In this document: positions 8,691 to 22,773 of the stretch, piece by piece
Position numbering within the stretch: position 1 is the first letter of the stretch
Layout: every line of letters starts with the position of its first letter
From: Elusimicrobia bacterium GWA2_51_34
Lineage (GTDB): Bacteria > Elusimicrobiota > Elusimicrobia > Elusimicrobiales > UBA9959
DNA: 64,000 bases
Direction: 5' to 3'
Assembly (NCBI GenBank): GCA_001799565.1
Contig: MGTS01000024.1
Location: 1 to 64,000 of the forward strand
Made by a program: the position numbers and the translations under genes
The notes under the pieces: generated by a model
What the model was told of the DNA's origin: nothing
Databases searched by the model: none
Seen by the model: only the letters and a program-made list of their open reading frames with translations

Positions 8691-8765
8691 TGGTGCGCCC
8701 ACCTGGAATCGAACCAGGACAACCAGCTTCGCAGGCTGGGACTCTATCCGTTGAGATATGGGCGC
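8691..8765 (-). tRNA. tRNA-Arg (anticodon GCG), CCA encoded
   Basis: GCGCCCATATCTCAACGGATAGAGTCCCAGCCTGCGAAGCTGGTTGTCCTGGTTCGATTCCAGGTGGGCGCACCA folds into acceptor (7 bp), anticodon (CCAGC/GCTGG) and T (CCTGG/CCAGG) stems; loop CTGCGAA. Confidence 0.9.
8728..8765. repeat. Left attachment-site repeat of genomic island (38 bp, tRNA 5' half)
   Basis: ttcgcaggctgggactctatccgttgagatatgggcgc, 37/38 identical to 22675-22712. Confidence 0.92.
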
Positions 8766-8771
8766 TTCACC

Positions 8772-9254
8772 TTATTTTACAAAGCTTTTTTGAACTTCAC
8801 AAGGAACGCTTTTTTCGCTTGGTGTCCATATAGGTGTCCATACAGCCGAGAGTATCTCCATTTCCGCCCTGATATGGCCGTTGGTTAGATGCGCGTATCT
8901 TTGTGTCATGACCGGGGAATAATGCCCCAGGATTTTCTGGAGCGCTGGTAGGTCCCTGGTCTTCATGATAAAGTGGCTGGCAAAGGTGTGGCGCAGGTCA
9001 TGAAAGCGAAAATCCTGTATATTTGCTCCTTCAAGGGCTTTTTGAAAATACCGTACAAGCGTGATCTTTGGGACAGTGAATACTTTTTCGGTGTCCCGAG
9101 GCAGCTTCATTAAAACATCGTATAACTGCTTGATAATGGGGATTTCTCTTGGTTTGCCTGATTTGGAATCCCTGATATATCCCGGCTCCCAAGCCGGTGT
9201 CTTTATGGTCTTTTTGGGCCCTGAAAACACATCTGTCCGGGGAAATTCCGCCAC
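8772..9254 (-). pseudogene. Tyrosine recombinase/integrase, C-terminal catalytic fragment (N-terminus missing)
   Basis: FRFHDLRHTFASHF...LQKILGHYSPVMTQRYAHL; has H-x-x-R, H and Y but no first catalytic Arg region; in-frame TGA two codons upstream of the GTG at 9254. Confidence 0.8.
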
Positions 9255-9530
9255 ATATCACAAAAAATTGGCGTAAACAGCCGTATTTATGCGTATTTCC
9301 CTGCGGAAACCGTCATGCTTGACTTTTAAAATGCTCAACGACGCAAGCCATCCCCCAAAATGGACATGATTCTGCATTTCCCGGTTTTGCCGCCTTACCG
9401 GACAGCACCGCTAAATTGACATAAAATCCCTTTCTCATAGGAGATTTGGCCTATTCTAAGGTCCGACTCGGTTTACACCCCACCCCAGTTTAAAACTTTC
9501 CCCGGACAGCTGTGCCTGAAAAAACTATTT

Positions 9531-9556
9531 CAACGCGACAATACGCTGTCGCGTTG
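9531..9556. promoter_or_regulatory. Perfect 10-bp-arm inverted repeat upstream of island lipoprotein gene (operator or hairpin)
   Basis: caacgcgaca-atacgc-tgtcgcgttg. Confidence 0.5.
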
Positions 9557-9647
9557 GTCTGCTACACTATTCTTGCATGGCACAGATAGTTCCATGCCTC
9601 TTAACCGAATATCCGGAAGAGAAACTGCCTAAAGGAGGCATAAACAA

Positions 9648-10052
9648 ATGAAGAAGACGATGGCAACAGCCTGGATATTTTTGTTCCCAGCACTTCTCTT
9701 TATGGTATCAGCATGTGCAACTACCAATAAAGCGAAGCAAGGCGCAATGATAAGCCAGCAGATATATGAAGAAGTGAGTAATACTGTGGTTGAGCAAATA
9801 ACTGAAATCGTAAAAGCGGCAGATGCTGGGACTATTACCAGTGTACAGCGCAAAACTCTTGCCGACTTGAGCGAGTTTAAAAAAATTCTCAACAAGTACG
9901 CAGAAGCTCACAACACTTATATAACAGCATTGAAAATCGCGGAGACTTCCTCCACGAAAACCAATGATGTCGGCAAACAAGCCCGTGAACTGGCAATAAT
10001 GAGCAGCCAGATCATTGACTACTGCGATAAGCTGGGGATAAAACTTCCCTAA
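9648..10052 (+). CDS. Small lipoprotein, unknown function
   Basis: MKKTMATAWIFLFPALLFMVSAC lipobox; RBS aaaggaggc upstream. Confidence 0.7.
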   Translation: MKKTMATAWIFLFPALLFMVSACATTNKAKQGAMISQQIYEEVSNTVVEQITEIVKAADAGTITSVQRKTLADLSEFKKILNKYAEAHNTYITALKIAETSSTKTNDVGKQARELAIMSSQIIDYCDKLGIKLP

Positions 10053-10064
10053 GGAGAGAACACA

Positions 10065-10370
10065 ATGAAGCACAACGAAATACTTAAAGCGGCATTGTCG
10101 GAAATTGCTAAAGACGAAGGCCAAAAGACCGGAGCCATAAAACTGCTTGATGCTTTTGGCAACGCGGCGGGCTTGATGTTGGCGGCGAACCCCGCATTTG
10201 CGGTCGTAAAAGGCCTTTTAGGTCTGGCAAAAACAGTATCTGCTGCCCTGAAAAATACTTCCGATATAGACAAAATAAATCTGGATGATTTATTTGTTGA
10301 AACGGTCGATGAAAAATTAAAGAAACGCGGAATAGATGACGATAAAATAAAGCGTATACTGGAAGCTTAA
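10065..10370 (+). CDS. Hypothetical 101 aa protein with central hydrophobic segment
   Basis: ORF with RBS aaggagag, directly after lipoprotein gene. Confidence 0.65.
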   Translation: MKHNEILKAALSEIAKDEGQKTGAIKLLDAFGNAAGLMLAANPAFAVVKGLLGLAKTVSAALKNTSDIDKINLDDLFVETVDEKLKKRGIDDDKIKRILEA

Positions 10371-10460
10371 AAAGCACCCTGTACGGCCTCTGTTATGGGC
10401 AGAGGTCCGTAGGGGAAGCTGCAAAAGATGGACCAATATAGTATAATTTCGGGGGGAAAT

Positions 10461-11588
10461 ATGAGCCTGCAAACACTAAAAAACAAGAAGCAAAAAGTCA
10501 GTCAAACTAAGCCCAAAACCATCACTTTTAAACTTGGAGAGTTGTTCTCCGGGCCCGGCGGAATTGCTATCGGTGCAACGTCCGCTTCTGCGACAAATTC
10601 AAGAAAAGAAACTTATAATATTGCACATCAGTGGGCGAATGACTACGACAAAGACACTTGCGCCACATACTGCAAAAACATCTGCCCTGGCGCAGACGAT
10701 ACCGTTATTTGCAGAGACATCCGCAAACTTGATTTTAACAAGCTGGACGATATTAACGCGCTAGCCTTTGGCTTCCCCTGCAACGACTACAGTGTTGTCG
10801 GGGAACAAAAAGGAATGGCCGGAGTTTTTGGCCCGCTGTATTCTTATGGGATTAAAGCAATAAAAATTTTTAACCCGGATTGGTTCCTTGCGGAAAATGT
10901 GGGCGGTCTTAAGAACGCAAACGATGGAAGTGCTTTTGAACAAATAACCCGGGAAATGTTTGATTGTGGTTACAATGTAGTACCGCATCTGTACAAATTC
11001 GAAAATTACGGAGTTCCTCAAGCGAGACACCGGATAATAATTGTGGGGATTCGAAAGGATCTCGGGAAAACATTTGTGGTTCCTGCCCCGCTTAAAAGCG
11101 GTCCAGTTACAAGCAGACAAGCCATTGAAAACCCGCCGATACCAAAAAATGCCCCCAATAACGAGCGGACCAAGCAGTCCGCGCATGTTATGGAGCGCCT
11201 TTCCTACATAAAACCTGGACAAAATGCCTTCACTGCCACTCTGCCGGCACACTTGACGTTGCAAATAAATGGGGCCAAAATAAGCCAGATATATAAGCGC
11301 TTAGACCCGAATAAACCGGCATACACTGTCACCGGCAGCGGCGGCGGCGGCACACATGTCTATCATTGGGCCGATAATAGGGCTTTAACGAACCGCGAAC
11401 GCGCAAGACTTCAGACTTTTCCGGATAATTTTGTTTTCGAAGGCGCAAAAGAAAGTGTAAGAAAGCAAATCGGAATGGCTGTGCCCGCCAAGGGCGTAAA
11501 AATTATATTTGAGTCAATTTTAAAAACTTTTGCCGGGGTTGAATATCCTTTTGTGCAGGCTTCCCTCCCGGTTTTAACGCACAAATAA
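10461..11588 (+). CDS. DNA (cytosine-5)-methyltransferase
   Basis: ELFSGPGG, FGFPCNDYSVVGEQKG, WFLAENVGGL, QARHRIIIVGI motifs; RBS ggggggaaat before ATG 10461. Confidence 0.9.
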   Translation: MSLQTLKNKKQKVSQTKPKTITFKLGELFSGPGGIAIGATSASATNSRKETYNIAHQWANDYDKDTCATYCKNICPGADDTVICRDIRKLDFNKLDDINALAFGFPCNDYSVVGEQKGMAGVFGPLYSYGIKAIKIFNPDWFLAENVGGLKNANDGSAFEQITREMFDCGYNVVPHLYKFENYGVPQARHRIIIVGIRKDLGKTFVVPAPLKSGPVTSRQAIENPPIPKNAPNNERTKQSAHVMERLSYIKPGQNAFTATLPAHLTLQINGAKISQIYKRLDPNKPAYTVTGSGGGGTHVYHWADNRALTNRERARLQTFPDNFVFEGAKESVRKQIGMAVPAKGVKIIFESILKTFAGVEYPFVQASLPVLTHK

Positions 11589-11589
11589 A

Positions 11590-12573
11590 ATGCTAAACGA
11601 CAAGCTTTTCAAAAGAGTTTTGCTCGATCCGGTCAGCGCAGGAGCGGATGAGCTTTTTATAGTTTCGGGTTATGCAACATCTGCCATGGCCTTCCATCAC
11701 CTCAACAATCTTAAAACCGAACTGCACAAAGATGTTAAGGTGAACCTCATTATAGGCATGTGTGTGCTTGACGGCCTTTCAGAAAGTAATCACCTCGGTT
11801 TTAAGAAAATAATGAATGAGGATTTCAAAGGCAGCTTTACCTGCCGCTATATCACGAACACTCCGCAATTGCACTCAAAAGTCTACTCATGGTGCAAAGG
11901 TAAAACACCCGTAGCAGGATTTGTCGGCTCGGCAAATTACACCCAAACTGCCTTTTATGAAAAACAACGTGAATGCCTCGTTAAAACCGACCCGGCCCAA
12001 TGCCTGAAATATTTCAAGTCGCTCATTAAAGACACTATATACTGCAATCACATAGAGGCTGGAAGCAGTATTCGGATATACCCTGATGCAGCTTTTGCAC
12101 GTTTTAAACGTCCTTCAAAGGCGAAAGAAATTCTTGCAGACGAAACCCCGGAGTTAAAAATTGCTGGAGTTCCCTTTGTTAAAGTTCCGCTTCTCGCTAA
12201 AGACGGAACACTTCCAGAACGTTCCGGTTTAAATTGGGGACAGCGTCCGGAAGAGCGCCGGCAGCCTGATCAGGCATACATAAGACTCCCGGCAGAAATA
12301 TATAAAACAGATTTCTTTCCGCCTATCGGACAGGATTTTATAGTCCGAACAGATGACCGGAAAATATTAACCTGCCACCGCGCCCAGCAGAACGGAAAAG
12401 GAATCCATACGTCTAATAACAGTCTGCTCGGCCAGTATTTTAGGAACAGGCTTGGACTCGCCGAAGGGGAATTTGTAAAAAAAGAGTACCTTGAAAAATA
12501 TGGCAGATCGGATATAGGCTTCTACAAAATTGAAGATGAAACCTACTACATGGATTTTTCTGAACCCTCTTAA
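11590..12573 (+). CDS. PLD-fold type II restriction endonuclease, NgoFVII-like
   Basis: LHSKVYSWCKG...GFVGSANYTQTAF (HxK and GSxN PLD motif) located 1 nt after the C5 MTase stop. Confidence 0.75.
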   Translation: MLNDKLFKRVLLDPVSAGADELFIVSGYATSAMAFHHLNNLKTELHKDVKVNLIIGMCVLDGLSESNHLGFKKIMNEDFKGSFTCRYITNTPQLHSKVYSWCKGKTPVAGFVGSANYTQTAFYEKQRECLVKTDPAQCLKYFKSLIKDTIYCNHIEAGSSIRIYPDAAFARFKRPSKAKEILADETPELKIAGVPFVKVPLLAKDGTLPERSGLNWGQRPEERRQPDQAYIRLPAEIYKTDFFPPIGQDFIVRTDDRKILTCHRAQQNGKGIHTSNNSLLGQYFRNRLGLAEGEFVKKEYLEKYGRSDIGFYKIEDETYYMDFSEPS

Positions 12574-12575
12574 AT

Positions 12576-12977
12576 GTGGACAACCTGACGCCAGAACAAC
12601 GAACTAAAAACATGAAAAATATCCGGTCGGAAGGCACCCGGCCGGAACTCAAGATAGCCAGAGAATTAAAGCGCAGGCACATCTACTTTTCCACCCACTC
12701 AAAAACAGTCCTCGGCAAGCCGGATATCCTTTTCCGAAGAAAGAAAATCGCGGTATTTATCGATTCGGATTTCTGGCACGGCAATCCTGACCATTTCAAA
12801 ATGCCAAAATCCAATATACGCTATTGGAAAGCTAAAATCAGCAGGAACAGATCCCGGGACAAGGAAGTTACTGGCACCCTGCGGCAGTCCGGCTGGAAGG
12901 TAATCCGCATTTGGGAACATGATATATATAAAAACTTCTCAAAAAGCGTCGCACGAATAGTAAAATATCTAAAGTAG
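12576..12977 (+). CDS. vsr: Very short patch repair (Vsr) endonuclease
   Basis: MDNLTPEQRTKNMKNIRSEGTRPEL...VFIDSDFWHGNP...GWKVIRIWEHDI. Confidence 0.92.
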   Translation: MDNLTPEQRTKNMKNIRSEGTRPELKIARELKRRHIYFSTHSKTVLGKPDILFRRKKIAVFIDSDFWHGNPDHFKMPKSNIRYWKAKISRNRSRDKEVTGTLRQSGWKVIRIWEHDIYKNFSKSVARIVKYLK

Positions 12978-13008
12978 ATAAATTCCTATATTTTTTATTT
13001 GAGATCAT

Positions 13009-14595
13009 ATGGCCCAAACTCCCAAATTCGCCAGCCATAATACACGGTTTAGACGTTTATGGATGTTTCCTAGAAACGTCAGAAAAATTGAGCCTTGGAA
13101 AGTGGCGCAAGGTCTTTCTTTTTTAGAGCCTTTAAAAGGGCTTATTTGGACCGGCAATCAAAGCCTGCAAAATGAGTTCAGAGGTAAATTGGTGTCTATA
13201 GGTATTGTAAGAGATTATGGTCCCTATGATCCGCATAGCGGCGGGCCCCGGACATATGAAGCACAGCTTCGATGTTTAGGCTTAATATACAAAACGCCGG
13301 GCGGCGGAATCGAGTTTACTATTGCCGGAGACGATATCTGCGAGACTGGGGCGCCGCTGAAGATTTTGCAGCGCCAGTTGTTGAACCTTCAGTATCCAAG
13401 CCCATATTCGTTCGGGACCCAGGTCAAAATTAACCCCGAAATCAAAGTTAAGCCTTTTCTTTTTATCCTCAATCTTCTTAAGCGGCCGGAAATCTCATAT
13501 TTAACTGCCGAAGAAATGGCTGTCCCAGTTATATACGGCCATAGCCACTCATGTGAAGATTATTGTGTGGAAAAGATTTTACAGCTTCGATCTGGAACCA
13601 GGCTTAAAGATTTACTTTTAAATCCCGCAGAAGATCTTTTCACCCCACGGACCGCAGATAACACTGTTGAGTCAAGAATCGTTGATGTTTTAACCATAGC
13701 CAATACCTGCAAAAATTATTTGGAATCCTGTCTGCTTATTGTCCCGGTCGAACAAGTCCGCGGCGCATACGCATTTAACCCAGAGATTGAGCCCGCGTAT
13801 CAAGCCGCACTAAAAGATGAAAATAATTACTTTGCGAATCCGGAAAATGAAGAGGGCTTCCAACGGGCTTATGGGGCATGGAATAGGAACAAAGACACAA
13901 GACGTGTTGTTGCGGAGGGGCGAAGCACGCCTGTTTTAAAAGAATCTTTTATTAAGGCTGGATTCTACGAATATTGCGGCACCCATGCGGTAACCGAAGT
14001 CTCAGAACCATTGGTAACATACATCCTAGAGAGAATCGGCGGGCCGAAAGAAGAAGTGCTTTCGGTGGTCGAAAAACTTATTCCACAATCCCTTGATATT
14101 TTTGAGACAAAGTATCTGGAACTTTCGGTGGGCGGCGTCTTATGCGCTGCTGAGTTTGAACAGGCAACGAACAATTTGTTCAACTCCGGTCTTGGTTTGA
14201 AATCGCAGTGGACTGGGAGTAAACGCAAAAGCCGTACAGAGAAAGGGGCATTTACCGACATTGTGGTATACTCTCCGCTCAAAGATGCCTGCGGTATAGT
14301 TGACACAAAAGCCGTGGTTAGATACAACCTACCCTCTGCTGATTATGCGAAAATGATTTCCAACTATATTCCCAACTATCGAGCCGTTGCCGGCCAGAGG
14401 TTTAATCTTGCATTCTGTTCATATGTTGCGGGTGGTTTTGCGGAATCATTCCCTAGTGAAGCTGTAAAAATATTTAATGCCACTAAGATCCCTTGCTCCG
14501 GTCTAAAAGCCATAGAATTGCTTAAAATGTCCAAAGACAAGCATTTGCCGCAAGCAAACTGGCAAACTCTTTGCAAAAATGGGTTAATTCGTTAA
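13009..14595 (+). CDS. AlwI-family type II restriction endonuclease-like protein
   Basis: WMFPRNVRKIEPWKVAQGL N-terminus and FTDIVVYSPLKDACGIVDTKAV PD-(D/E)xK-like core. Confidence 0.7.
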   Translation: MAQTPKFASHNTRFRRLWMFPRNVRKIEPWKVAQGLSFLEPLKGLIWTGNQSLQNEFRGKLVSIGIVRDYGPYDPHSGGPRTYEAQLRCLGLIYKTPGGGIEFTIAGDDICETGAPLKILQRQLLNLQYPSPYSFGTQVKINPEIKVKPFLFILNLLKRPEISYLTAEEMAVPVIYGHSHSCEDYCVEKILQLRSGTRLKDLLLNPAEDLFTPRTADNTVESRIVDVLTIANTCKNYLESCLLIVPVEQVRGAYAFNPEIEPAYQAALKDENNYFANPENEEGFQRAYGAWNRNKDTRRVVAEGRSTPVLKESFIKAGFYEYCGTHAVTEVSEPLVTYILERIGGPKEEVLSVVEKLIPQSLDIFETKYLELSVGGVLCAAEFEQATNNLFNSGLGLKSQWTGSKRKSRTEKGAFTDIVVYSPLKDACGIVDTKAVVRYNLPSADYAKMISNYIPNYRAVAGQRFNLAFCSYVAGGFAESFPSEAVKIFNATKIPCSGLKAIELLKMSKDKHLPQANWQTLCKNGLIR

Positions 14596-14769
14596 GCTTC
14601 CGTGTTGGGGTAGGCAGTGTGTAATTATAAAAGACATCTTTTTCGTCCAACTATTTCGAAAGGTGTTTCCATCAGGCGAGAAAGAGAAAAATTATAATAA
14701 AGGCTGAGTCAAGGACTTCTATTTGGATTTAATGTTTAACACTCAAGCCATTCCATAATTATATTATTT

Positions 14770-15252
14770 ATGAGAGAAATCAAGTTTTTTTTTGATAGGC
14801 ATCAGTGCTTTGCACTAAAGAATATTAAACCATTGGCCGGCATTTGCGGCTTATATTTTATTTTTTTGGAAAAAACGGATATCCAGTATCCGTTTGGGAA
14901 GTCTAGGCTTATTTATATCGGAATGAGTGAGAAGAAAACCAATAGCATAGGCAAAAGACTTTCCGACCATTATGACGGGATTTCGGGGAACCAGGGCCTG
15001 GTAAATTATCGTTCCGTTGAGCAACTAAATTTCACATATCTGAATTTTGCCATGCTGAAGGATTTATGGAGTTACAGTATTGAAGATCTGGAAAGCTATT
15101 TTATATTAGATTTTGTGGAAAAATTCGGGGTGTACCCAATCTGCAATAATAAAACCGGGTTTGAGGTTCAGAAGCGGGATATCGATTTAAGGCTCCTTAT
15201 TGACTGGAAGTATTTTGATAAGAAGGAGATTTCTAATGACAGAAAATCTTAA
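14770..15252 (+). CDS. GIY-YIG-like nuclease domain protein
   Basis: GLYFIF...LIYIGMSE...IGKRLSDHY...IEDLESYFILDFVEKFGVYPICNN follows the GIY / YIG / R / E / N pattern. Confidence 0.7.
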   Translation: MREIKFFFDRHQCFALKNIKPLAGICGLYFIFLEKTDIQYPFGKSRLIYIGMSEKKTNSIGKRLSDHYDGISGNQGLVNYRSVEQLNFTYLNFAMLKDLWSYSIEDLESYFILDFVEKFGVYPICNNKTGFEVQKRDIDLRLLIDWKYFDKKEISNDRKS

Positions 15253-15433
15253 AAGCGGTGCGGAAATTGTCGCAGACTTTTTCTCCGGCATAAACAGTCT
15301 GGATGGTATTGATAAAAGCATCGCAGATGCTTTAAAGAAACTTTATGCCGATGGGAAGCTGAGCAACATAAATATCTCTAATGCGCTTACTCTTATCCGG
15401 AAGGAGTCTCAAAATGAAAATAAAAAACATTGA
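15236..15433 (+). CDS. Small (~65 aa) protein, middle gene of GIY-YIG/ATPase operon
   Basis: ATG at 15236 with RBS aaggagat; overlaps upstream gene by 17 nt and downstream gene by 20 nt. Confidence 0.65.
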   Translation: MTENLKSGAEIVADFFSGINSLDGIDKSIADALKKLYADGKLSNINISNALTLIRKESQNENKKH

Positions 15434-17828
15434 GATTTCTGGATTAAGAGGTGTAAAAGACCAGCTCTCTTTGCCTTTAGAAGGGAAATCAATGTTGATT
15501 TATGGAGAGAACGGAAGTGGAAAGAGTTCCATTACAGATGGACTGGAGTGGTTTTATGCTGACGAGGTTAAACACCTGTCAACTGGCGAAATTGGGCGTG
15601 GCGGCATAGCGGCATTGAGGAATATATTTTTACCAGAAGATAAAGAGGCATCTGTTGATATCAAGTTCTCGGATAATAAATATGATTCAAAGAAGAGGCT
15701 ATATTTGAAGAGGGGCGTCCTGCTTGGTGAACACTCGAATTCAGGAGAGGAATTCGGTCAATACCTTGCCGCTTCTAATATTAAAAATCTGATTTTAAGA
15801 TATCAGGCTCTTTTGGAATTCATATTGTGTGCGAAGAATGACAAACTCAGGGAAATTTCACTGATTATCGGTTTCGAAGAGGTTACAAAAACAAGAGATG
15901 TCCTGAAAAAAGCAGTTGGGGATTTAAAAAAAGAAATTAAACTACGGGATTATGATTCCCAGATTAATGCGAAGCAGTCTGTAATATTGGAGCAGGTGTC
16001 CAGGAATATTAATGATGATGTCCAATATCTTGAGGCTATTTCCGAATTGGTTGTCCCGCTGAAACTCCAGGCAGATGTAAGGGATATGGAGAGTGTAGAC
16101 AAGATTCTTGAACGGATAAAGTTGCCGGAAAATGAAGAGACCTTGAAGCTCCAGCTTTCCTGCGAGAAGGCACTCGAATTTATATTAGTCTTTGCCGCGC
16201 GCAGGCAAACCGCCTCTGAAATATACGCGCGATTCTTCGAAAAATATCAGGCTGTTTTCTCGGATAAGAGTAAGCTGAAAAATATTGCCCTAGAACGGCT
16301 GCTGGCGGAGGGACTATCTCTTTTAAAACGGGATGATTTTAATGAGGATGTTTGTCCTCTTTGCCGTCAGGAGAAGAACAGAAAAGACCTTATATCAGGA
16401 TTGAAAGCGAGAATTCAGGCGCTAACAGCTTATAAAAAAGAAAAGCAGGAGCTGGATGAGCTAAAACAGGAGATAGTTTCCATCCATGAAGCAATAGGCC
16501 TGCTGTGTGAGAATGTTTTGCGAGAGCCTCTTTGGGGTAAAAAGGAAAATGCTGAGCCAAAATTGTTTATTGAATCGCTCAGGAATTTGAATTCCGAATC
16601 TTTACAGGCAATGAAAACAGCAGAGGCCTCACCCATTCCGCCAGCTAAATATTTCCCGCTTGATGCGGAGGGACTGGCAAAGCTCCGTTCCGAGTTGCTT
16701 GAACTCAAACAGGAAACATACGCTGTAAAAAAAGATGATCTTAAGTTTTTGATAAATAACAAACTGCTGTTGACAAAAACAGCATATCTCGAAATCAGAA
16801 CTTTAAAAAAAGAACGGGACATTCTGTCTCGCCAACTTGCTTCTATGGAATTGATGTATTCCGCATTCGTCAGCAAGCAAAGCGCGGGGCTTGCCGCATT
16901 TTTGACGGCAATTTCTAAAGATATTAATGACTTTTACGGCTACATGAACACTTCCGAGGGGGTTGATGAGATACAGCTTATCCCAATTGAATCTGATGGC
17001 GAATTACTCGGCCTAACCCTTCAGTTTAAGTTTCATGGCAATCTGGTTTCTCCTCCAGATAAATATTTGAGCGAGTCCCATCTCAACTGTCTTGGTATAT
17101 GCCTGTTCCTTGCATCCGCAAAAGTTTTTAGCAAGGGCAATAGATATTTCGTTCTTGATGATGTTGTTTCAAGTTTTGATGCGAATCATCGGTTACGCTT
17201 TGTGAATCTGCTGCTGGAAAAATTTTCGAATTATCAAATTTTGGTTTTTACCCACAACACGAGTTGGTTTGGGTATTTTGCCAATGCAATCAAAGGTAAA
17301 AACTGGTTTGTAAATAAAATACGCTGGACTCCTGAAGGTGGCGCATGTTTGGAAGCGCCGCCTTTGATGGATTTGAAGGCAAAAATTGAGGCAAAGTTCT
17401 CGGGATCAGACCCGGAGGGATTGGGAAATCTGACCCGGAAATATCTCGAACAATTGCTGAAAGATATCTGTTTCAATTTGCAGGTGGAACTCCGATTCCT
17501 TTATAACAGCGAAAATGAAAATAGAATGTCTTATGAATTATTGACCGGGCTTAAGGCTGTGCTTAAGCGAAAGAAATCAGACCTGTTGGACAATTCCGTG
17601 TTTGAATCCCTTTTTAACTCTTCTTTTGTCGGGAATAAGGAGTCCCATGACAGTGATTTTAATGCAACAATTCCAGATCTTAGGACTTTTTATGCAGATG
17701 TCCAGAAGCTGGAGGTTGCATTCCGGTGCGCCCATTGTGGACGCCTGATTTCAGGGAGAAATTACACTCTGGCAGATAAGAAAATTAGTTGTGGCTGTCC
17801 TGTCGGGAAAAAATATTCTTGGGAATAA
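15414..17828 (+). CDS. SMC/RecF-like AAA ATPase with zinc-hook CPLC and C-terminal Zn-ribbon
   Basis: IYGENGSGKSSITDGL Walker A, coiled-coil with CPLC, LSESHLNCLGICLFLA signature-like, YFVLDDVVSSFD Walker B/D-loop, C-terminal CAHC...CGC. Confidence 0.88.
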   Translation: MKIKNIEISGLRGVKDQLSLPLEGKSMLIYGENGSGKSSITDGLEWFYADEVKHLSTGEIGRGGIAALRNIFLPEDKEASVDIKFSDNKYDSKKRLYLKRGVLLGEHSNSGEEFGQYLAASNIKNLILRYQALLEFILCAKNDKLREISLIIGFEEVTKTRDVLKKAVGDLKKEIKLRDYDSQINAKQSVILEQVSRNINDDVQYLEAISELVVPLKLQADVRDMESVDKILERIKLPENEETLKLQLSCEKALEFILVFAARRQTASEIYARFFEKYQAVFSDKSKLKNIALERLLAEGLSLLKRDDFNEDVCPLCRQEKNRKDLISGLKARIQALTAYKKEKQELDELKQEIVSIHEAIGLLCENVLREPLWGKKENAEPKLFIESLRNLNSESLQAMKTAEASPIPPAKYFPLDAEGLAKLRSELLELKQETYAVKKDDLKFLINNKLLLTKTAYLEIRTLKKERDILSRQLASMELMYSAFVSKQSAGLAAFLTAISKDINDFYGYMNTSEGVDEIQLIPIESDGELLGLTLQFKFHGNLVSPPDKYLSESHLNCLGICLFLASAKVFSKGNRYFVLDDVVSSFDANHRLRFVNLLLEKFSNYQILVFTHNTSWFGYFANAIKGKNWFVNKIRWTPEGGACLEAPPLMDLKAKIEAKFSGSDPEGLGNLTRKYLEQLLKDICFNLQVELRFLYNSENENRMSYELLTGLKAVLKRKKSDLLDNSVFESLFNSSFVGNKESHDSDFNATIPDLRTFYADVQKLEVAFRCAHCGRLISGRNYTLADKKISCGCPVGKKYSWE

Positions 17829-17876
17829 AATTTTCTTTTTTTGGGATTCAGAAAATGATCGGGTTATGGAGGTAGA

Positions 17877-18104
17877 ATGGAACATTATCAAAATATAGGT
17901 GGAAATTCTGGTGTGGCTACCTATGAGACTGGCGTTGACTATATAAAGGTGCAATTCAGTGATGGATCAGTTTATCTTTATAATTATCAGCGCCCTGGAC
18001 GTTCAGATGTTGAACATATGAAAGGTTTGGCCGGTGCTGGGCAGGGATTGAATAGTTATATCAGCAGTGTCGTTAGGAAAAACTATGCTTCAAAAATAAT
18101 TTAG
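17877..18104 (+). CDS. Small protein, KTSC-domain-like
   Basis: VDYIKVQFSDGSVYLYNYQRPG...LNSYISSVVRKNYASK; short conserved-looking ORF directly after ATPase gene. Confidence 0.45.
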   Translation: MEHYQNIGGNSGVATYETGVDYIKVQFSDGSVYLYNYQRPGRSDVEHMKGLAGAGQGLNSYISSVVRKNYASKII

Positions 18105-18401
18105 GAGTTGTCCGGCGAAGCAGGGGAGATAGAGGATGCATCATAGAGAGGTGTAGGTCCCTGATGGTTTTTAGTCATTGAATGAATCCTAACAGGGGGA
18201 TTAAGTATGGAGAAGGGTAAAGAGAAAAGTAAGGAGAAAATTCTCAGTAATGGCTGAGAATCCCGCGATTGCTACACAACAAATTACGGAAACCATTAGT
18301 TTAAGTCTTGCGGGAGTTGAGAAAATCATCATCATACTTAAAAATTCCAAACCAGTGGGTGGTCTGGTTTTCGGGGGAACGTCACAAGTTCATTGCATTC
18401 T

Positions 18402-19538
18402 ATGCAAAACAAACATCCTACATTGTACTTGGATGAATCTGGATATACCGGCAATAATCTGCTTGATAAAGACCAACCAATATTTGTTTACAGTTCGGTA
18501 GAAATTTCTCCAGAGGAAGCTTCGCAGCTGGTTGTCGAGATTTCAAAAGAATTCAGTCTTACTGCTACTGAGCTTAAAGGGGCGAAACTTTGCAGATCTT
18601 CTAAAGGCCAGCGGGTAATACTTAAGATTTTGTCGAAACTCGACAAAAGATTCCAATTTATTGCGGTTAATAAAAAATATGCCGCCGCTTGCAATGTATT
18701 TGAATACTTAGTTGAGCCAGCAATATCAGAATGCAATTGGTATTTTTACGCACAAAAGCTGAATTACTATGTGGCGGATTTAATATATTCTCAGGCAGCA
18801 ATAGACTCGGAAGAAATACTTAAAGGAATTTCTTTAGGAATACGAGCACGTAATACGGCTTTAATATTTGAGACTTTAAAAAAGGTTCCTGATCTTGGTA
18901 AGGAGGGCACTATTTTTAGTGTCATCAAGGAACTGGTTACCAACAACCGAACTGCAATACTGAAAGAATTTGAGATGCTCCAAACTAATGAGCACACGCG
19001 ATGGTTGATGGATCCGACTTTTACATCGTTGTTTTCCCTTTTGTGTGGTTGGTCGGAGAATGGCTCATCATTGGAGGTTTATTGTGATGAATCAAAGCCC
19101 TTAACTCAGTTAGTGCCTGAATTGCAGGCGAGAGTTGCCGCTAAAACAGAGGATTTTGAAATGCCTTCAGGGAGAAAGATGAAGATTTTTTCGCTTATAA
19201 AAGGAATTGAATTAAAAAACTCAAAAGTTACACCTGGCCTTCAATTGGCAGATACTGTGGCAAGTGCGTCCAATTTTGCCATAAACAATCCAAATTCCGA
19301 ATTTGCTCGTCAAGCGGGAAGCTTTTTGTGTAAAGGAATCAACCCGAATAGCATGAGCCCATATTCGCAAGTATTTACCCCAGAACAACGAGAGCGCCTT
19401 GGCGGATTGCTGGTAATCATTGCTAAAGCACAGTTGAAAGGTATGTCGCCATGTGAACGTTTACGGTTTCTTATTGAAAAGGGGCAGCATTTAAGAATGT
19501 GGGAAATTAGTGATTGCTACCTATTAAAACAATTATGA
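18402..19538 (+). CDS. DUF3800 domain-containing protein
   Basis: TLYLDESGYTG N-terminal and TPGLQLADTVASAS C-terminal motifs typical of DUF3800. Confidence 0.75.
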   Translation: MQNKHPTLYLDESGYTGNNLLDKDQPIFVYSSVEISPEEASQLVVEISKEFSLTATELKGAKLCRSSKGQRVILKILSKLDKRFQFIAVNKKYAAACNVFEYLVEPAISECNWYFYAQKLNYYVADLIYSQAAIDSEEILKGISLGIRARNTALIFETLKKVPDLGKEGTIFSVIKELVTNNRTAILKEFEMLQTNEHTRWLMDPTFTSLFSLLCGWSENGSSLEVYCDESKPLTQLVPELQARVAAKTEDFEMPSGRKMKIFSLIKGIELKNSKVTPGLQLADTVASASNFAINNPNSEFARQAGSFLCKGINPNSMSPYSQVFTPEQRERLGGLLVIIAKAQLKGMSPCERLRFLIEKGQHLRMWEISDCYLLKQL

Positions 19539-19569
19539 CAGAATCACTTGTTAAGTGTGGTGGACGAAG

Positions 19570-22299
19570 ATGACAAAGCCGGCAAAAATGTGTTCTAAAA
19601 TAGATGTACAGATTTTAGTAATTGATAAAGCCATTTGTGGTTATATCAACAAGTTCGACGCTTCTGAAAGGGGCGCACTCTCTCAGGCGATTCTGCAACA
19701 GCTTCGGAATCTTGTTGAGCACATCATGCTCAAGGCCTACGCCGACGGGCGGGATATAGATATCACATACCCCAATATCTGCGCTGCAATCGCCTTTGTA
19801 AAAACAAGGGGTGAATTAAAGTTCTTACGGCGTTTTCATTATTTTCTGCAAATAGTCGTATCCCACTATACTCAAGGCGAAGAGGACTCCGAGCGGCTGA
19901 TGCTTAAATATTATGAGTTCCTTCTGAAAATCCGAGAATACCTGAAAGCAAGATATTCTCTTGATATTCTCGGGAATCTGGATAAATTTCCGATAAATAC
20001 GGATTCAGACCTAAAAGAGTATTATGAAAAGATTGCCGATAAGGTAAATCGGCACAACGTATTCGATTCTGGCAAGACGCGGCACGAGAGGTTTTATATC
20101 AGAAAGATAAAGCCATTCTTTGTTGGTCAAAGGATTTACTACGAGGTAACCTTTACTCTTGCCAATGAGAAATCGAGCAAGTTCGATAGAATTATCGCCT
20201 TCACTGCTTTGGATATTTCCCAGTTCTATGCGGCGAGGTTATACACAGTTAGTGACCGCATAGAAATTCTCGGCAAAATTATGCCCATTCTCATCATCGT
20301 TAGATGGGAAACATCTATACGCCCTTGTGAGCTAAATAATTTTGCGAAGATTTTCGGTGTAGACCTGAAGATGACTAGCGCGAATCCGGAATACCGTGAG
20401 TTGATGGGCTTTTTGACGGGAACAGGGTTCAGTCTGGTCGAACTCATTGATTTCCCTGACGGTGATTATAGTGCTGTGCGGCAAAGAATAGCCAAGAAAA
20501 CCGTTGCTTTGCCTTTCATCGATCTCCTGGATGAATGCCGTAAGATAACGCAAAGCTCTGGTGCCGGCGGTAATGTTATTCGTTATTTGCTCTATCATCT
20601 GAACAACAAAATCATAAAATCACAGTATGAAATAACGGGTGGCAACAGAAAGCTGTCTAACCTTTGTTTAAAGAATGGCTGCATCCCTTTTGATAAGATG
20701 CCATTCAATACATCATTGATTAATCATAATCCAAAACTCTCGGATTTGTTTGAGTGCACCGATTCAACCGCCAAGGAACACGAGTTATTTGCACGACGTA
20801 TAAAGAACAGCGCTGAAATTCAGGGGCAACTCTATACCCCTGTTGAAGATGTTTCCAGCTTTAGTGACTCCAATGCGCTTATTCAAAAATATAATGATGC
20901 ATTGTGGTGGGGGCATACAGATCGCCGCTTAGAAACTCAAAACGGACAAATTTACATCCGAGGGTACCAGGAGGACACGCTTTTTATCATCAAAAAGCTT
21001 AATGAACTGGTGCAAAAAGGTATCACAAACTACTCCAAGTCGGTCATTTCTTGGTTACAATCGACAGATCATAAAATCGACAGTGACGAAAAGAAAGCAG
21101 CTTTGACAGAGATGTTTGAGAAGTCTACTGTCGTGCTAATTTATGGCTCCGCTGGTACGGGCAAATCAACACTGATTAATCACATATCGCATTTGTTTTC
21201 CGGGAATAAAAAGTTGTATTTAGCGAATACAAATCCAGCGGTGGATAACCTGAAGCGTAGGGTAACTGCTTCAAATTGCACCTTCGAAACTATCGCAAAG
21301 TTTTTGAAGAGACAAGATACATCCACGGAATATGACTTACTGATAATTGACGAATGTAGCACTGTTAACAACAGAGATATGCGGAATGTTTTGGAGAAAG
21401 CAACATTCAAGCTCCTGGTTTTAGTCGGCGACATTTATCAGATAGAATCAATTCGTTTTGGCAACTGGTTTAGCACTGCTCGGAGTTTCATTCAGAAAAA
21501 TTCCGTGTTTGAGTTGACCATGCCTTATAGAACTAAGAACACTGGTTTGCTTGAGTTGTGGAGAAGAGTGCGCCACATGGACGAGACTATTCTTGAACAT
21601 ATCGCTAAGAATGGTTATTCCGCCAGGCTTGATGCGTCAATTTTTGAACCTGCTGAAGCTGACGAAATAATTCTATGTCTGAACTATGACGGCCTTTACG
21701 GGATAAACAACATTAACCGTTTCTTGCAGGAATCGAACCTTAATCCCGCCATCCAGTGGGGTATTCAGTTCTATAAGGTCAATGATCCAATCTTGTTTAA
21801 TGAGTCTGAACGATTTGCACCTTTGATATATAACAACACAAAAGGTCGAATTGCCGGGATTAAAGTTTTTGAAAATCAAATCCAGTTCGACATTGAGTTG
21901 GACAAGGTAATTAACGGGATGGATGCCGCCAGGTATGACTTCACCTTGCTAGAGGATTCTGCAACTGGACATTCAGTGATTAGTTTTTTTGTAAATAAAT
22001 ACAAAAGCACGGATGAAGATGACGATATATTATCTTCGGCGGTCGTCCCGTTTCAGGTGGCCTATGCGGTGTCGATTCATAAAGCACAGGGATTAGAATA
22101 CAACTCGGTAAAGATCGTAATTACAGATGAGGTAGACGAGTTGATTTCTCATAATATTTTCTATACAGCTATCACCCGCGCGAGGAACAAGCTCAAGATT
22201 TATTGGACGCCTGAAGTTGAAAAGAAAGTGTTGAGCAGCATCAAACCGAAGAGCAACAACAAAGACGTGGCGCTATTGAGGAGCATCAATAATTTGTAG
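19570..22299 (+). CDS. SF1 (RecD/UvrD-like) DNA helicase with long N-terminal extension
   Basis: LIYGSAGTGKSTLINHI Walker A, LLIIDECSTVNN Walker B, LVGDIYQIESI, VAYAVSIHKAQGLEYNSVKIV, FYTAITRARNKLKIYW. Confidence 0.88.
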   Translation: MTKPAKMCSKIDVQILVIDKAICGYINKFDASERGALSQAILQQLRNLVEHIMLKAYADGRDIDITYPNICAAIAFVKTRGELKFLRRFHYFLQIVVSHYTQGEEDSERLMLKYYEFLLKIREYLKARYSLDILGNLDKFPINTDSDLKEYYEKIADKVNRHNVFDSGKTRHERFYIRKIKPFFVGQRIYYEVTFTLANEKSSKFDRIIAFTALDISQFYAARLYTVSDRIEILGKIMPILIIVRWETSIRPCELNNFAKIFGVDLKMTSANPEYRELMGFLTGTGFSLVELIDFPDGDYSAVRQRIAKKTVALPFIDLLDECRKITQSSGAGGNVIRYLLYHLNNKIIKSQYEITGGNRKLSNLCLKNGCIPFDKMPFNTSLINHNPKLSDLFECTDSTAKEHELFARRIKNSAEIQGQLYTPVEDVSSFSDSNALIQKYNDALWWGHTDRRLETQNGQIYIRGYQEDTLFIIKKLNELVQKGITNYSKSVISWLQSTDHKIDSDEKKAALTEMFEKSTVVLIYGSAGTGKSTLINHISHLFSGNKKLYLANTNPAVDNLKRRVTASNCTFETIAKFLKRQDTSTEYDLLIIDECSTVNNRDMRNVLEKATFKLLVLVGDIYQIESIRFGNWFSTARSFIQKNSVFELTMPYRTKNTGLLELWRRVRHMDETILEHIAKNGYSARLDASIFEPAEADEIILCLNYDGLYGINNINRFLQESNLNPAIQWGIQFYKVNDPILFNESERFAPLIYNNTKGRIAGIKVFENQIQFDIELDKVINGMDAARYDFTLLEDSATGHSVISFFVNKYKSTDEDDDILSSAVVPFQVAYAVSIHKAQGLEYNSVKIVITDEVDELISHNIFYTAITRARNKLKIYWTPEVEKKVLSSIKPKSNNKDVALLRSINNL

Positions 22300-22442
22300 G
22301 AGAAGATACAGCACGGTTCTTAATATATTGATAAGGTTGGGAGGAGACTGTGGAGAAAACTGTGGAGAAAATCCTAATTTTCATGTAGTAATCCCCTAAA
22401 ATATAAGGGTTTGTATTCGACGGCTATTAGACCGGGCTGGCT

Positions 22443-22479
22443 TACCCAAGAAATTACCCAAGAAACTGCCCAAGAAAAT
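22443..22479. repeat. Three 12-bp tandem copies (acccaagaaatt-type)
   Basis: acccaagaaatt acccaagaaact gcccaagaaaat. Confidence 0.7.
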
Positions 22480-22566
22480 GTTTTTCCCTTGATGTTGGGG
22501 GTCGTTTTTGAAAATCCGAAACGACGGTTTCTCGCCACTATTTAGGAAGTGCGAACGCTCACTTCT

Positions 22567-22597
22567 TTGGTGTCCATATAGGTGTCCATCGGGTGTC
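22567..22597. repeat. Repeated GGTGTCCA boxes at island right end, shared with the integrase 3' end (8819-8841)
   Basis: ttggtgtccatataggtgtccat identical (23 bp) at 8819-8841 and 22567-22589. Confidence 0.8.
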
Positions 22598-22674
22598 CAA
22601 AACGGTCATATCCCATCATACCCCAACAGGGTTTTCCATAGGGAACGCCGGATTTTCATTGGGGATTTGATGGT

Positions 22675-22712
22675 TTCGCAGGCTGGGACTCTACCCGTTG
22701 AGATATGGGCGC
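22675..22712. repeat. Right attachment-site repeat of genomic island
   Basis: ttcgcaggctgggactctacccgttgagatatgggcgc. Confidence 0.92.
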
Positions 22713-22773
22713 CTCTGTTGCCGGTAGCCAGGCTGTCTGATGGTCATAGCCCTTTATACGGCACGGCCATAGG

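Follow-up and report, generated by a model that had tools for sequence, protein, structure and literature searches.

The stretch of DNA analysed here (the window) covers 64,000 nucleotides, positions 1 to 64,000 of contig MGTS01000024.1 from Elusimicrobia bacterium GWA2_51_34. It contains a compact trio of overlapping genes, followed by a fourth small gene, within a ~14-kb island (window 8691-22715) situated at a tRNA-Arg gene. The relevant features are:

8691..8765, minus strand: tRNA-Arg(gcg), the integration site of the island
8772..9254, minus strand: C-terminal fragment of a tyrosine integrase, recognized by sequence motif only, adjoining the tRNA
14770..15252, plus strand: GIY-YIG nuclease-like gene (160 aa, single domain; putative effector)
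15236..15433, plus strand: small helical middle gene (65 aa; putative adaptor)
15414..17828, plus strand: Rad50/SMC-type ATPase gene (804 aa; zinc hook)
17877..18104, plus strand: 75-aa KTSC-like gene, 48 nt past the ATPase gene (recurrent, optional fourth gene)
22675..22715, plus strand: partial tRNA duplicate of 41 nt, 95% identical to 8728-8768, at the far end of the island

The nuclease and middle genes overlap by 17 nt (15236-15252), and the middle and ATPase genes by 20 nt (15414-15433); the coordinates, lengths and overlaps given in an earlier note on this DNA proved exact when the sequence was read again. Ribosome-binding sites of the AGGAG type lie upstream of the middle gene and of the ATPase gene, and a purine-rich site is found just 5' of the 75-aa gene, while none was seen in the window sequence before the GIY-YIG gene. 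A promoter scan of the locus scored below the shuffled mean.

The product of the first gene carries the motifs GLY (residues 27-29) and YIG (49-51), and G27/Y29, Y49/G51, R63, H67, E108 and N126 are invariant among the 69-71 relatives aligned. Thus the motifs, the catalytic Arg, His, Glu and Asn and the β-β-α-β-α core of the GIY-YIG superfamily are all present, and the secondary structure of the AF2 model (pLDDT 88) agrees with that core. Taken alone, the window protein falls under the Pfam GIY-YIG cut-off (13.5 vs 22.6 bits); GIY_YIG_2 is matched in 66/71 relatives, with a best E value of 1e-4. A Foldseek comparison of the model with solved structures gave no significant match, T4 EndoII being among the weak PDB matches, and the top viral structural matches are phage endonucleases, named GIY-YIG proteins among them. 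The invariant catalytic residues, the family matches and the phage endonucleases together uphold the identity of a GIY-YIG nuclease proposed in the earlier note. As a bare single domain that lacks a DNA-binding module, the nuclease probably relies on its partners for targeting.

The middle protein is helical by pattern, measures 58-81 aa in relatives (typically ~62 aa) and shares the conserved core KSGKEILDxFF...LY..GKLTDxN in their alignment. Its profile weakly resembles the recognition helix of plant GARP/Myb domains (ARR10, E 0.001), a resemblance at the level of sequence that could be due to chance or could hint at DNA binding.

The ATPase scores above the Pfam cut-off for SMC_N and displays the split head, Walker A and B motifs, signature, H-loop, coiled coil and CxxC hook of Rad50/SMC-type ABC ATPases. 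Walker A occupies residues 31-38, the CPLC zinc hook 314-317, the signature (S-E-S-H-L-N) 552-558, the Walker B LDD 581-583 and the H-loop H614; a C-terminal helical domain (~654-770) and a four-Cys zinc ribbon (772-795) follow. Each of the motifs first read by eye (GENGSGKSS, CPLC, VLDDVVSSFD and CAHC...CGC) was found again in the sequence. Walker A, hook, Walker B and H-loop are invariant or nearly so across relatives, with an Asp-Asp Walker B (LDD) in 54/54. For the AF2 model (pLDDT 85), the top Foldseek matches are Rad50 chains of Mre11-Rad50 complexes, and a Lamassu LmuB chain first appears at rank 39. The C-terminal part (window 17375-17828) holds near-invariant N..RxYLE..LK, NExRM and NxxSHD motifs besides the zinc ribbon. 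A HEPN-type RNase was considered for this domain and is unsupported, because N-x-x-S-H is kept but the required Arg is Gly in 42/54 ATPases.

When ~85,000 species genomes were scanned with an alignment of the nuclease, 96 relatives were returned, of which 80 were kept. At all 80 loci a small gene and the ATPase gene lie downstream of the nuclease on the same strand and in the same order, the small gene always in between (80/80); as the scan patterns favour close relatives, this count describes the present nuclease family and not all GIY-YIG proteins. The small gene overlaps the ATPase gene in 70/72 measurable loci, with start codons chosen by script. The trio is thus a conserved operon, as first suspected, with an arrangement far above chance. 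A nuclease without linkage to the ATPase in other genomes, the outcome that the earlier note took to speak against its proposal, was not encountered among the 80. Hosts span at least 12 phyla (Bacteroidota, Nitrospirota, Planctomycetota, Chloroflexota, Cloacimonadota, Calditrichota, Bacillota, Pseudomonadota, Thermodesulfobacteriota, Elusimicrobiota, Aminicenantes, Margulisbacteria and Auribacterota, with one archaeal bin); many of the genomes are metagenome bins, alongside isolates in culture and one complete genome, from Brocadia. The three proteins co-evolve: pairwise distance correlations reach r 0.80 for nuclease and ATPase, 0.83 for small protein and ATPase and 0.70 for nuclease and small protein, values matched in 0/2000 permutations. 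Within Elusimicrobiota, 6/295 genomes have a strong ATPase match, all six with the nuclease, and a seventh retains nuclease fragments only. Even in the divergent plasmid copy NZ_CP080785.1, which was left out of the alignment used for structure prediction, the nuclease is inverted yet the three genes are still adjacent.

The trio is rare, patchy and laterally transferred. A genome of the same genus (locus L142) has the flanks of the window island and lacks the island itself, and the plasmid copy just described (L002 7309-13980) sits beside tniQ, tniB and Mu-type transposase genes. Phylum changes in the nuclease tree exceed those expected from one origin per phylum. The window nuclease is nearest to copies from Nitrospirota, Aminicenantes and Brocadia, and the nucleases of Endomicrobia, which also belong to Elusimicrobiota, group with Bacteroidota; these positions point to separate acquisitions within the phylum. 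No ortholog was detected in 296 other Bacteroidota (0/296), where one distant relative was matched at 1e-39. Decayed copies in Endomicrobia (L021, L022 and L023) reveal repeated loss, which fits the loss of a defence system and equally that of any dispensable cargo. A phage-borne origin was considered and rejected: 50,697 phage records contain no relatives of nuclease or ATPase, and scans of viral contigs yielded none with the nuclease and at most weak matches with the ATPase.

The surroundings of the trio are strongly those of defence genes, in line with the earlier expectation of a defence setting. The window island carries a restriction-modification cluster (10428-14595) with a C5 methyltransferase, an NgoFVII-type PLD nuclease, Vsr and a 528-aa protein whose weak type II enzyme match makes it a possible second restriction enzyme. 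On the other side (18393-22299) lie a DUF3800 protein and a 914-aa helicase that matches the PADLOC candidate PDC-S53 at 1323 bits. Across loci, 148 proteins neighbouring the trio match 150 PADLOC families at 1e-20, compared with 62 families for 148 control proteins, an enrichment to be read as a guide and not as a precise rate because the control regions come from four genomes. Every control family is matched by one protein only; among the neighbours, type III methyltransferases (up to 5), type II methyltransferases (up to 4), Shedu SduA (4), Old (3) and PDC-S06 (2) recur. The trio itself matches none of the systems catalogued in PADLOC-DB 2.0.0, a point on which the earlier note had reserved judgement: the profiles match the window nuclease and middle protein in 0 families, and the relatives of these two proteins give marginal, scattered matches (the best to PDC-M57B, 2.4e-4 in 11/71). 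A literature search found no description of the trio, though a key ABC-ATPase survey was outside its reach and an earlier in-silico mention may exist.

The 75-aa gene was put forward in the earlier note as a possible fourth component, and it does recur: in 15/80 loci a KTSC-like gene is no more than 130 nt away from the trio, upstream or downstream, and others accompany the trio in Endomicrobia (L019-L022). The family is also found alone, with a copy in 53/295 Elusimicrobiota genomes and mostly away from the trio, so it is an optional partner and no defining part. The KTSC label itself, assigned by eye, finds no backing in Pfam, where the 75-aa protein matched no model, KTSC included, and five relatives gave no KTSC match at E up to 5.

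What might these genes do together? As the trio is linked across phyla and sited in defence islands, it is most likely an uncatalogued bacterial immune system. Our main reading, to which we give a probability of about 0.65, is that of a horizontally transferred module of three, sometimes four, genes in which the ATPase clamps DNA, the middle protein bridges and the nuclease cuts. Two Rad50-type ATPases would be held together by the CPLC zinc hook and by their heads with ATP bound; the dimer would clamp DNA typical of an invader, such as a free end, a hairpin or a branched replication intermediate. The link between these heads and the stand-alone nuclease would be the middle protein of ~62 residues, in a complex where recognition either sets the nuclease on DNA or frees it from inhibition. 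The ensuing cut would destroy the invader or kill the infected cell, with the KTSC-like protein as an optional accessory. In this most likely mechanism, recognition of foreign DNA by the ATPase would fire the nuclease via the small adaptor, a design similar to that of Lamassu/ABC-3C or Mre11-Rad50. Such a module would add an uncatalogued cross-phylum three-gene candidate to the class of SMC/Rad50-based immunity. With ~1,030 residues in total, it would offer a compact test of how these ATPases sense foreign DNA and switch nucleases, and its function is directly testable, since isolates in culture (for example a Pedobacter or Polaribacter among L053, L071 and L094) and one complete genome carry intact copies.

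Lamassu (LmuABC/DdmABC, ABC-3C) is the closest known system in layout, with an effector, a small middle protein and a zinc-hook SMC protein (PMC10586767). The trio has the same gene order, its ATPase is likewise SMC-like with a zinc hook, and both reside in defence islands. It could therefore be a Lamassu subtype in which a GIY-YIG effector replaces LmuA, and PADLOC indeed ranks LmuB first for the window ATPase, an LmuB profile matching 55/55 ATPases of the set. True Lamassu operons fetched from the same phylum served as a yardstick, and against these the score is weak, the window ATPase reaching 76-78 bits where true LmuB proteins reach 140-376. In a tree, the ATPases of the trio cluster on a branch of their own (support 90), and LmuB on another (97). 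Their Asp-Asp Walker B, constant in 54/54, differs from the Asp-Gln (Glu-to-Gln) form of LmuB, which reads DQPSQ in the three closest local proteins. Sizes diverge too: the same-phylum operons combine effectors of ~300 aa (262-313), middle genes at the LmuC position of 153-193 aa and LmuB proteins of 566-660 aa (~650 aa), whereas the trio has a middle protein of ~62 aa, unrelated by profile, and an ATPase of 804 aa. LmuA bears a C-terminal docking domain, whereas the trio effector is a single GIY-YIG domain of ~150 aa; the PADLOC LmuA profile did not match the window nuclease, and this nuclease type is absent from the Lamassu effectors listed in one review. Layout and likely logic are as in Lamassu, but membership is not supported: the ATPase score, the tree, the Walker B motif and the sizes of the partners lead us to reject it, and a subtype of this kind appears unlikely. 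We tentatively propose, at somewhat less than even odds, a separate undescribed immune family with a Mre11-Rad50-like sensor, its nuclease exchanged for a structure-selective GIY-YIG enzyme, a ~62-residue adaptor, and an interchangeable core of small protein and ATPase that would also occur without nuclease on archaeal and rhizobial plasmids.

Rad50 is the nearest fold of the ATPase, and SLX1 and ANKLE1 are examples of GIY-YIG nucleases that cleave branched DNA during repair (PMC9071465, PMC10287932), so that the trio might instead serve DNA repair or the processing of DNA ends, as a counterpart of SbcCD/Mre11-Rad50 equipped with a GIY-YIG nuclease; a repair cassette on mobile elements would give much the same pattern. 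Mre11-Rad50/SbcCD similarly joins a zinc-hook Rad50-type ATPase to a nuclease, but the latter is the calcineurin-like Mre11, a domain that Pfam does not detect in the trio or the scanned window neighbours. The trio furthermore adds the small protein and the C-terminal helical domain and zinc ribbon of the ATPase, and it is mobile and rare. Its patchy, transferred occurrence in islands and on a plasmid among defence neighbours is unlike housekeeping repair, and same-genus relatives of the window genome do without it, which makes a repair role in place of immunity quite improbable. More remote still is selfish cargo, with a homing-type nuclease spreading its element. Homing endonucleases often have a GIY-YIG fold, and the mobility of the cassette suits this reading, but there is no intron, intein or constant insertion site, the nuclease keeps a strict partnership with ATPase and middle protein, an integrase and a tRNA site belong to the window island itself, and the phage records contain no relatives of nuclease or ATPase. 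An immune module remains the preferred reading.

Other defence systems share parts of this design. The DndD/CxC ABC-ATPases, with which GIY-YIG (URI) nucleases are among the nucleases associated, always occur with small DndE, thought to be a kleisin-like or DNA-binding subunit (PMC10853773). The pairing of an SMC-type ATPase with a small protein is common to both, but DndE is a double ribbon-helix-helix protein, and the trio has a CPxC and not a CxC hook and no modification genes. Menshen, to which the earlier note had likened the layout, likewise combines an ATPase and a nuclease in a defence system of several genes, but consists of DUF262 and OLD/TOPRIM nuclease components (PMC10952713). Pfam detects neither DUF262 nor TOPRIM in the trio, so Menshen is rejected by composition; no SMC trio like the present one is involved there, and Lamassu/ABC-3C or Mre11-Rad50 compare better. 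The GIY-YIG domain is known from the defence proteins CMoRE, PD-T4-3 and PD-lambda-1 (PMC12923530, PMC10952713). Differently from the trio nuclease, a bare domain with partners, CMoRE is single-component and has its own modification-sensing domain.

Related ATPases also occur in other contexts. On haloarchaeal and alphaproteobacterial plasmids, a gene for a ~58-75-aa protein overlaps with one for an SMC-type ATPase with a CPxC hook, and GIY-YIG is lacking (L003 4822-6959, L114 4822-6968, L004 3470-6194, L115 3425-6847 and L116 3460-6086); one such pair has a DCL-family gene directly 3'. These pairs may represent a broader core with exchangeable effectors; the hhalign probability between their small proteins and the middle protein is 28% at best. 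Finally, related ATPases of ~790 aa lie right after a helicase-like gene at L163 2748-11571 and L164 2513-11618, with methyltransferase-like genes downstream (identified by eye), and would constitute another candidate SMC-containing system.
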